From the NCBI RefSeq assembly GCF_900108035.1, contig NZ_FNVS01000002.1, forward strand, positions 186,001 through 250,000: a stretch of DNA of 64,000 nt, written 5' to 3'. Every line of letters begins with the position of its first letter. Position 1 is the stretch's first letter. The notes beneath the pieces were generated by a model. That model saw nothing but the letters and a program-made list of their open reading frames with translations, made no database searches and was not told the origin of the DNA. This DNA comes from Parabacteroides chinchillae (lineage in GTDB: Bacteria; Bacteroidota; Bacteroidia; Bacteroidales; Tannerellaceae). This document shows positions 8,420-58,412 of this stretch, in pieces. The position numbers were made by a program, and so were the translations under genes.

Positions 8420-8423
8420 TATT

Positions 8424-8500
8424 ACATAAAGGGGTGCCAAACTGTATGGGCTGAGATCATACCCTCGAACCTGATACGGGTAATGCCGTCGTAGGAAAGC
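8424..8500 (+). promoter_or_regulatory. TPP (THI-element) riboswitch
   Basis: Contains the conserved TPP aptamer blocks in order: GGGGTGCC (8431-8438), GGGCTGAGATCATACCC (8448-8464), ACCTGATACGGGTAATGCC (8469-8487) and CGTAGGAAAGC (8490-8500). It lies about 35 nt before the thiD ATG and 3' of the promoter. It should switch thiD-tenI-thiE-thiC off when thiamine pyrophosphate is plentiful. No strong intrinsic terminator follows the aptamer, so control of translation initiation is the simpler reading. Confidence 0.95.
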
Positions 8501-8534
8501 ACAGAGGCTTTTTCCCTCCTTTTTGATAAGAAAA

Positions 8535-55680: not shown

Positions 55681-55688
55681 TATCTTTG
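55681..55688 (+). promoter_or_regulatory. -7 box for the structured RNA/MBOAT transcript
   Basis: TATCTTTG fits TAnnTTTG, just before the first hairpin of the structured leader. No -33 TTTG at the usual distance. Confidence 0.5.
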
Positions 55689-55689
55689 C

Positions 55690-55975
55690 ATTAATTCTGT
55701 AGACTTATAGAGATAAGCCGCTACAGAAGGACATAAATCAGAACGAAGAGCGTTTCTAAAGATATTATTCTTGTCATAGAAAATCCCCAATTTTCGAAGC
55801 CGTACGGGAATAATAACAACAGAAATAGCTCACGCCTGTGGTATATGAACATCTCAGAGATGAGAGGGTTATATCATATCGGCGTGGGACTGTTGTTTAT
55901 TATTTGTACGGTGGGTATGGGGATACCTCTATGACAAATAAGACATAAAGACAGTTCCCACGCTCTTTATTTATA
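55690..55975 (+). ncRNA. Strongly structured RNA with alternative helices, upstream of the MBOAT gene
   Basis: First hairpin: CTGTAG (55697-55702) with CTACAG (55721-55726), enclosing CTTAT-AGAG-ATAAG. Conformer 1: AACAACAG (55815-55822) with CTGTTGTT (55890-55897), then CACGCC (55831-55836) with GGCGTG (55881-55886), capped by TCTCA-GAGA-TGAGA with a GNRA loop (852-865) and ATATGA/TCATAT. Conformer 2: GCGTGGGACTGT (55882-55893) with ACAGTTCCCACGC (55951-55963), nested TTATTTGT/ACAAATAA and GGTAT-GGGG-ATACC, followed by a U-rich run. The two conformers share the same segment and exclude each other. No coding frame. No known riboswitch family matched. Confidence 0.6.
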
Positions 55976-56031
55976 ATACTCTATTAGCTTATCGTCAGGG
56001 AATTGAGATAAGATATGACACAACTCTGCTT

Positions 56032-57489
56032 ATGTTATTCAATTCATTTGAATTCTTTATTTTCCTGCCGCTGGTATTCCTGGGGTATTGGTTTGTGTTC
56101 AAACCGTTAAAATGGCAAAACCTGTTTGTTATCTTTATTAGTTACCTATTCTATGGTTGGTGGGACTGGAGGTTCCTGGTGCTTATTGCTTTCACGTCGT
56201 TATGCAGCTACCTAAGTGGTATTTACCTTGAACGAAACGAAGGTGATCGCAATAAACAGAAATGGATTAGTGCGAGCAATATTACTCTGAACCTCTTTAT
56301 CCTATGCTTGTTTAAGTACTTCAACTTCTTCTCTGAGAATCTGGGGATTCTATTCAAAGCATTCGGAATACAATTGGACTTTGTTACGCTAGATATTCTT
56401 CTACCTGTTGGCATCAGTTTCTATACCTTCCAAGCCTTAAGCTATACAATCGATGTTTATCAACACAAAATAAAAGCGACACATGATCCGATTGCCTTCT
56501 TTGCTTACATCAGCTTTTTCCCCCAATTGGTGGCCGGGCCTATCGAGAGAGCAACGAATCTGCTGCCGCAATTCAACCGTCCCCGTACCTTCGACTACGA
56601 CAAGGCAGTAGACGGTATGCGCCAGATGCTTTGGGGATTCTTTAGGAAAATGGTAGTTGCGGATAATTGTGCCTTATTTGCCAATGGTATTTTCGAGAAT
56701 TACCAGACGATGAGTGGAAGTGCCTTATTCATGGGGGCATTCTTCTTTACAATACAAATTTACGGTGACTTCTCTGGTTATTCGGATATAGCAATCGGTT
56801 GTGCCCGTTTGTTCGGAATCAATTTGATGCAAAATTTTAATTATCCCTACTTCTCAAGAGATATCGCCGAATTCTGGCGCAGGTGGCATATCTCACTTAC
56901 AACCTGGTTCCGCGATTATATCTATATTCCCTTAGGCGGAAGCCGTGCGGGTAAATGGAAAGGATTTCGCAACACAATGATTATCTTTCTAGTTAGCGGC
57001 TTCTGGCATGGCGCAAACTGGACGTTTATTGTCTGGGGAGCTTATCATGCGTTGCTATTCTTACCTCTGCTCCTTTTGGGCAAAAACAGAAAATATAAAA
57101 ATATAATTGCGGAAGGGAAACTATTCCCTTCATTCAAAGAGATAATTCAAATGGCAACAACCTTCCTGTTGGTAGTTATTGGTTGGGTTATATTCAGAGC
57201 AGAAACAATTATGCAAGCCTTTGAGTATTTGAAGGGGATGTGTGATTGGTCGTTATTTACAGTACCCCAAATGCAAGGAATCGGGATAACCCAAACACAA
57301 GCTGCAATTACATTATTATCAATCTTTATCTTATTTATTTTAGAATGGACTTATAGGAATAGACCTTATGGTATAGCGATACTCTTTCCTAACAAAACAT
57401 ACCAAAAATGTATTTATATATTAATAGGTATTATACTTCTTTTATTTAGACAACTTGATCAATCTGCTTTTATTTATTTTCAATTCTAA
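56032..57489 (+). CDS. MBOAT family O-acyltransferase (AlgI/DltB-like)
   Basis: 485 residues, about 10-12 membrane helices. MBOAT motifs: WRRWHISLTTWFRDYIYIPL (about 283-302) and the catalytic His in FLVSGFWHGANWTFIVWG (about 324-341). N-terminal GYWFVFKPLKWQNLF and LPVGISFYTFQALSY are typical of AlgI-type enzymes that move acetyl groups to extracytoplasmic polymers. Followed 8 bp later by an SGNH-like membrane protein, the usual partner that completes transfer. Target polymer (exopolysaccharide, LPS or wall) not known. Confidence 0.93.
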   Translation: MLFNSFEFFIFLPLVFLGYWFVFKPLKWQNLFVIFISYLFYGWWDWRFLVLIAFTSLCSYLSGIYLERNEGDRNKQKWISASNITLNLFILCLFKYFNFFSENLGILFKAFGIQLDFVTLDILLPVGISFYTFQALSYTIDVYQHKIKATHDPIAFFAYISFFPQLVAGPIERATNLLPQFNRPRTFDYDKAVDGMRQMLWGFFRKMVVADNCALFANGIFENYQTMSGSALFMGAFFFTIQIYGDFSGYSDIAIGCARLFGINLMQNFNYPYFSRDIAEFWRRWHISLTTWFRDYIYIPLGGSRAGKWKGFRNTMIIFLVSGFWHGANWTFIVWGAYHALLFLPLLLLGKNRKYKNIIAEGKLFPSFKEIIQMATTFLLVVIGWVIFRAETIMQAFEYLKGMCDWSLFTVPQMQGIGITQTQAAITLLSIFILFILEWTYRNRPYGIAILFPNKTYQKCIYILIGIILLLFRQLDQSAFIYFQF

Positions 57490-57497
57490 TTTAGCTT

Positions 57498-58412
57498 ATG
57501 AAAAAGTTCTTTGTATTCTTGGTTAAATGTAGCTGTATCTTTATGTTATGTTACGTTTTATTTATCATTTTATTAGTAATATTCTATACTAATAAAAATA
57601 TTACGGACTCCTATATAGCGTCAGACTTTGATAAACATAATCGTTTAATTCAAATTTCTTCTCCTAAAATAGTATTTATAGGAGGTTCTAACATTGCGTT
57701 CGGATTACATTCTGAACTAATAAAAGATTCTCTACATATAGAACCTGTTAATATGGGTATAAGTGCCGGCATAGGACTGAAATATATGCTTAAAGAAGTT
57801 ATTCCTCATTTAAAAACAAAAGACATATTAGTCATAATACCCGAATATGAACAGTTTTCACCTAAATGTTATTACGGAGAGGAAACTTTGTCTGAATTAT
57901 TACAAATTAAAAAAGAATGGAAAGAGTTAGTGTTTCAAACTGACTGGGTTGCATTTCCAAGTTCTTTAATTTCGAGAGTCATAACAGATATAATCTACCA
58001 CTTTACAAATAAAGCAACTCCTGAACGTTATAGTCGAATAAAATTTAATGAATATGGAGATTACATAGGACACTGGCAGTTCAAGCATCATTTAATATCA
58101 GCCCCGCCAATCACAAGCTCTTTCAGTCCTAAAGTAATTGAAGATATTAAAGGCATCATTTTGCAACTAGAGCATAAAGGAGTAAAAATATATTTAATAC
58201 CGCCATGTTATCATGCAGATAATTACAGCTTAGATTCTCAACGGATTCTGTCCATTCAAAAAGAGCTGCAAAAACAAGGAATTCCTTTTCTATCCAACCC
58301 GGAACGTTATGTATTTAATGATTCCTTATTTTATGACACTCAGTACCATCTTACAAAAGAAGGAGGTCTAATCAGAACCCAACGTTTGATTGAAGACTTA
58401 AAGCGCAAATGA
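57498..58412 (+). CDS. Membrane-anchored SGNH-like partner of the MBOAT enzyme
   Basis: 304 residues. One N-terminal membrane helix (about 8-30) then an extracytoplasmic domain. Block I of the SGNH fold is FIGGSNIAFG (nucleophile Ser; GGSN replaces GDS), and block V is DTQYHLTKEGG near the C-terminus with the Asp/His pair. VNMGISAGIG may be block II. Comparable to AlgJ/AlgX-type acetyl carriers. It forms an operon with the MBOAT gene. No other polymer genes adjoin, so the acceptor cannot be inferred. Confidence 0.75.
   Translation: MKKFFVFLVKCSCIFMLCYVLFIILLVIFYTNKNITDSYIASDFDKHNRLIQISSPKIVFIGGSNIAFGLHSELIKDSLHIEPVNMGISAGIGLKYMLKEVIPHLKTKDILVIIPEYEQFSPKCYYGEETLSELLQIKKEWKELVFQTDWVAFPSSLISRVITDIIYHFTNKATPERYSRIKFNEYGDYIGHWQFKHHLISAPPITSSFSPKVIEDIKGIILQLEHKGVKIYLIPPCYHADNYSLDSQRILSIQKELQKQGIPFLSNPERYVFNDSLFYDTQYHLTKEGGLIRTQRLIEDLKRK

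Follow-up and report, generated by a model that had tools for sequence, protein, structure and literature searches.

Members of the Bacteroidales are dominant in the gut microbiota, where the switching of surface proteins and glycan transporters underlies their success. Processive antitermination by LoaP, UpxY and EAR involves leader RNA hairpins close to promoters that drive surface polysaccharide operons or long operons. Here we describe a folded RNA in a 64,000-nucleotide (nt) stretch of Parabacteroides chinchillae (RefSeq assembly GCF_900108035.1, contig NZ_FNVS01000002.1, positions 186,001 to 250,000; hereafter, the window), where it lies upstream of a gene for an MBOAT O-acyltransferase. 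The window element is one copy of a large RNA family without an Rfam match. We propose that this RNA is probably a cis-acting conditional transcription terminator, or attenuator, in the 5' leader of mostly surface genes. Unlike the antitermination systems above, most copies of the family precede protein adhesins or lipoproteins, and no antiterminator gene was linked to the RNA, no test aimed at such a link having been made.

With riboswitches and attenuators the window RNA shares a 5' leader position, mutually exclusive antiterminator-like and terminator-like helices, and a U-run. It differs from them in the diversity of the mainly surface genes downstream, a four-way junction with kissing loops at its core, an additional element, termed D, that follows the terminator, and its tens of copies per genome. 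The paralogous small RNAs (sRNAs) FopS and GibS of Bacteroides thetaiotaomicron have a single-stranded 5' seed region followed by a terminator hairpin (PMC11697453). They too are multi-copy RNAs tied to surface genes in Bacteroidales, whereas the window RNA is a large folded cis leader with its 5' part folded into a terminal hairpin (P0) and hairpin I, leaving no single-stranded seed. A classical metabolite riboswitch may fit the highly structured core, but no metabolic theme was seen among the downstream genes.

The initial annotation judged that no known class fits, which is borne out by the Rfam 15 covariance models: none matched the element, whether in the window or at 18 other loci. A screen of the human microbiome reported 3161 candidate structured RNA motifs, some of them palindromic and Bacteroidetes-specific (PMC8040213). 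These may include fragments of the window RNA, and the main text of that report names no motif with its architecture. Our literature search found the RNA undescribed in open-access text, with subscription papers and supplements outside its reach, so the claim of novelty is limited to Rfam 15 and open-access text. A structured leader that Rfam lacks and that recurs tens of times in a genome would add a large, unrecognised layer to the control of surface proteins and glycan transporters.

Extent and features of the RNA

The full element begins with the -7 box at 55681 and extends as far as the start codon at 56032, which makes it larger than the segment 55690-55975 first given for it. Segment 55692-55975 has a folding energy of -94.3 kcal/mol (z = -7.6 versus shuffles). 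Relatives were compared in two alignments: A1, with 25 copies, and A2, with 108 model matches drawn from 100 loci, three of its rows being reverse-strand echoes. The covariance model R1 was used for later genome searches. Both strands score with the covariance model because the element is quasi-palindromic. Features of the window copy are as follows, with column numbers referring to the alignment and two-sided changes meaning that both partners of a pair differ.

55681..55688, plus strand: -7 box TATCTTTG (TAnnTTTG, the Bacteroidetes promoter motif), conserved in the family
55695..55728, plus strand: P0, 5'-terminal hairpin with an AGAG tetraloop at 55709-55712, followed by GGACATA at 55729-55735
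55748..55755, plus strand: S1a, 5' strand of hairpin I, pairing with S2a; columns 20/116 alternate between A-U and G-C
55770..55779, plus strand: S1b, core helix strand CTTGTCATAG, pairing with S4b; 10/10 pairs with two-sided changes in A2
55779..55795, plus strand: hairpin hp1, GAAAATCCCCAATTTTC, loop complementary to the hp2 loop; stem pairs also supported
55800..55822, plus strand: S2b and S2, core strand (CCGTAC, then GGGAATAATAACAACAG), pairing with S3; 9/10 pairs with two-sided changes
55828..55836, plus strand: A, GCTCACGCC, upstream partner of B in the antiterminator-like helix P4; two-sided changes at 125/232, 127/230 and 129/224
55837..55880, plus strand: variable apical hairpin of P4, from the fold; length and sequence vary in A1 and A2
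55881..55895, plus strand: B, GGCGTGGGACTGTTG, switching segment complementary to A and C
55896..55911, plus strand: S3 and S3b, core helix strand TTTATTATTTGTACGG, with core covariation
55913..55927, plus strand: hairpin hp2, GGGTATGGGGATACC, stem 97.2% paired with two-sided changes; loop complementary to the hp1 loop
55929..55935, plus strand: S4b, core helix strand CTATGAC, with core covariation
55952..55963, plus strand: C, CAGTTCCCACGC, 3' arm of the terminator-like hairpin B:C; two-sided changes at 230/359 and 232/357
55964..55972, plus strand: U-rich tract after C, enriched in T across copies
55988..56012, plus strand: D hairpin, CTTATC...GATAAG, with its loop GGGAATTG (55998-56005) complementary to CAGTTCCC of C
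56032..57489, plus strand: MBOAT O-acyltransferase, first downstream gene (PF03062, E 2.5e-29)

Competing helices and a candidate attenuator

The initial annotation had pointed to mutually exclusive helices around 55882-55893, in an attenuator or riboswitch layout beginning at a -7 box. That box is present as TATCTTTG at 55681-55688, and the competition is confirmed. On its upstream side, segment B, GGCGUGGGACUGUUG at 55881-55895, is complementary to A plus CAACAG (55817-55836); downstream it can instead pair with C, CAGUUCCCACGC at 55952-55963, after which comes the U-rich UCUUUAUUU. The GNRA cap attributed to the extended hairpin survives only in part: GAGA is readable in the window copy, but the apical loop varies among relatives. 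An Rfam hit, or relatives without compensatory changes, had been named as findings that would count against the proposal; no Rfam model matches and the relatives carry extensive compensatory changes, so both objections fall, and the layout now has comparative support from about 100 copies.

Of the 27 pairs in the RNAalifold consensus of A1, 19 had two-sided changes. In A2, the S1b:S4b, S2b:S3b and hp1/hp2 loop-loop pairs were paired in 96.8% of cells (108 rows) versus 35-41% for slid controls, with two-sided changes in 26/27 pairs (1047 such cells); these counts lean towards core pairs, as A2 was fitted to the core structure. The loop-loop pairs were kept in 98.8% of cells, and all 7/7 had two-sided changes. 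Independent of the core fit, hairpin I (S1a:S2a), hp1, hp2 and B:C were 86% paired, with two-sided changes in 16/21 pairs. Hairpins I (S1:S2 with hp1) and II (S3:S4 with hp2), linked by the covarying helices S1b:S4b and S2b:S3b and by the complementary loops, make up a four-way-junction core with kissing loops. Pairing of S1a with C was also considered and dropped as unsupported, being no better than slid controls.

Helix P4 (A:B) was paired in roughly 80% of cells, with two-sided changes at 125/232 and 127/230. Columns 230 and 232 of B covary with A as well as with C, which shows that the choice between the two pairings has been conserved. Mean helix scores across 104 copies were 22.8 for A:B and 22.9 for B:C, as compared with 13.4 and 14.1 for shuffled sequences. 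These means are informative, whereas the number of copies in which B scored at least 14 with both A and C (98/104) is weak alone because 44-54% of shuffles also reach that score.

The flanks of the switching helices are conserved as well. TAnnTTTG occurs at a similar upstream distance in 103/104 copies, when 8.6 would be expected by shuffling, and an RGNG-capped 5' hairpin occurs in 71/103, when shuffles would yield 1.35. Its RGNG tetraloop is a possible protein-binding site of the boxB type. The 9 nt after C contain a mean of 7.2 T across copies, relative to a background of 3.0. D is complementary to the first part of C and mostly lies 21-30 nt past it, before the start codon. Compensatory variants of C:D occur, such as GTTTCC/GGAAAC and ATAGCTC/GGGCTAT, and the complementarity is individually significant at 0.05 in 41/104 copies. 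Two other roles for the region were set aside. Inspection by eye led us to drop a Shine-Dalgarno role for D, GGAGG being absent from many copies, and leader-peptide attenuation was rejected because ATG-initiated frames vary from copy to copy in where they lie and how long they are, with no conserved upstream open reading frame (ORF).

Conditional termination is the best reading because the promoter, the terminator and the competing helix are all conserved. The covarying hairpin B:C directly precedes the U-run, as in a terminator, and the alternative helix A:B shares strand B with it, as in an attenuator. In the proposed mechanism, strands S1-S4 would adopt either two hairpins, in the terminator state, or a zipped rod with A:B formed, in the manner of a four-way junction that undergoes branch migration and is braced by its kissing loops. 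Zipping of S2:S3 in the core, together with formation of A:B, would let RNA polymerase pass the U-run; D, which can only form then, could pair with C and so maintain the read-through state. If hairpins I and II form locally instead, B:C and the U-run would end transcription, releasing a short RNA of about 270-280 nt. In the window copy, hairpins I and II appear unprompted in the folding program once B:C is forced. Some factor (a protein, ion, metabolite, temperature or a trans RNA) would shift the junction, and the output would be expression of a surface or envelope gene.

Several observations weigh against conditional termination, in addition to the fit of A2 to the core. For the terminated transcript of the window copy, the A:B fold (-93.8 kcal/mol) is 12 kcal/mol better than the forced B:C fold (-81.8 kcal/mol), pseudoknots being left uncounted, so termination here would need kinetic control or those uncounted pseudoknots. 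The U-tract is interrupted in this copy (UCUUUAUUU), and a simple terminator scan found no terminator in it, the scan being blank because it allows loops of only 3-8. C:D is weak in the animal-gut subfamily. Finally, tandem units without D could be free-standing RNAs.

We more tentatively suggest, at somewhat below even likelihood, that the family is a new, order-wide class of regulatory RNA in Bacteroidales in which a branch-migrating four-way-junction switch with kissing loops would set transcription termination across a large surface-gene regulon in response to one common signal. If so, a single cue acting on tens of leaders simultaneously would reshape the cell surface, and such a signal would be of general interest. 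The core is well enough defined, by one covariance model and explicit alternative pairs, for direct tests.

Alternative readings

Although unlikely, the rival that fares best is a family of trans-acting sRNAs, in which terminated RNAs of about 270 nt would bind RNAs or protein through exposed hp1, hp2 and P0 loops, and proximity to genes would be secondary. Nearly every copy has its own promoter and U-run, and paralogous sRNA families that regulate surface genes are known in Bacteroides (FopS, PMC11697453). A tandem array (L259, 501-1739) holds four RNA units about 333 nt apart (starting at 501, 835, 1166 and 1501), each preceded by a separate -7 box; only the last unit is followed by D and by an ORF encoding a secreted protein, so the upstream units have neither D nor an intervening ORF. 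Likewise, 11/104 copies are without an ORF of at least 50 amino acids (aa) starting within 200 nt. Yet such an ORF begins on the same strand within that distance in the other 93/104, immediately 3' of most copies, and D sits between the U-run and the start codon. Moreover, the hp1 and hp2 loops pair internally, with covariation, rather than being left exposed.

A slightly less probable rival is that the same leader acts on translation or RNA stability with little intrinsic termination: C:D and the D hairpin would gate the ribosome, or a ribonuclease would recognise P0. The strong conservation of the RGNG-looped 5' hairpin is compatible with this, as is the position of the D hairpin near the start codon. 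Where D is clear, it is flanked by stems of at least 5 in 30/50 copies (13 expected), often lying in a hairpin loop. However, the near-universal U-run right after C marks a terminator, and the upstream units of the tandem array keep C and the U-run without D.

It is improbable that selection acts on a DNA palindrome, such as a miniature inverted-repeat transposable element or a recombination site, rather than on an RNA. The element's quasi-palindromic sequence, matched by the covariance model on both strands, and its dispersed multiple copies, including some on plasmids, would suit a mobile repeat. But similarity between copies in the same genome ends at scattered points without a common boundary, often extending into promoter and signal-peptide sequence; the helices tolerate G-U pairs; and the element keeps a fixed order and strand relative to the promoter, U-run and start codon. 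A polymerase-binding RNA of the 6S type, raised in the initial annotation as a separate non-coding RNA, is highly improbable: the long rod-like fold with its own promoter recalls 6S RNA (RF00013) and 6S-Flavo (RF01685), but neither model finds a match in the window's own genome at E<=10, and the window RNA is a multi-copy leader element of coding genes, with up to 46 copies per genome and terminator and D elements.

Downstream genes and distribution

The genes downstream of conditional termination as proposed here are diverse. Families include GLUG, BspA-type leucine-rich repeats, lectin-like and collagen-like adhesins, and type IX secretion system (T9SS) sorting domains, along with SusC/RagA receptors, FecR and ECF sigma factors, Crp-like regulators and unnamed lipoproteins. 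With export called by a simple signal-peptide heuristic, 70/85 products were exported or membrane proteins versus 24/56 window genes (p = 1.6e-6). Excluding the repeat-protein group left 27/39 exported or membrane products (p = 0.013).

The gene that would be governed in the window copy is the MBOAT acyltransferase, an incidental target. The initial annotation linked the RNA to the MBOAT operon, but among 30 close MBOAT relatives it lies upstream of the window's own gene only, and an MBOAT-specific leader is rejected (1/30 loci). Two Bacteroidaceae contigs (L092 and L095) likewise combine the RNA with MBOAT.

Relatives detectable by blastn occurred in 26/59 genomes, every one in the window's genus. 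R1 matched 35/38 Parabacteroides genomes and 92/295 genomes sampled across Bacteroidales, and a phylum-wide draw of 395 genomes gave only four matching genomes outside Bacteroidales (about 4/388). Named species bearing the RNA include Bacteroides cellulosilyticus, B. nordii, B. stercorirosoris, B. acidifaciens, Phocaeicola faecalis and Sunxiuqinia dokdonensis. Copy number was highest in one genome with 46 (G020). The window's genome has copies at 4 distinct places, two extra rows being reverse-strand echoes; one copy (G000:C30:67580-67806) precedes a conserved 116-aa ORF of unassigned function and another (G000:C30:132297-132532) a lipoprotein-like ORF. A phage origin was considered and rejected, as no phage record matched and five IMG/VR contigs with a short-pattern match failed the covariance model.

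Some copies lie on large plasmids (L208 3991-4217 and record OY726002.1; Parabacteroides distasonis and Phocaeicola massiliensis), and one (L019 1501-1560) appears to be a remnant with its middle mostly deleted. In the window, the second gene of the MBOAT operon (57498-58412, plus strand) had no Pfam match. The window also contains a thiamine pyrophosphate (TPP) riboswitch at 8420-8514 on the plus strand, scoring just over the Rfam gathering threshold.
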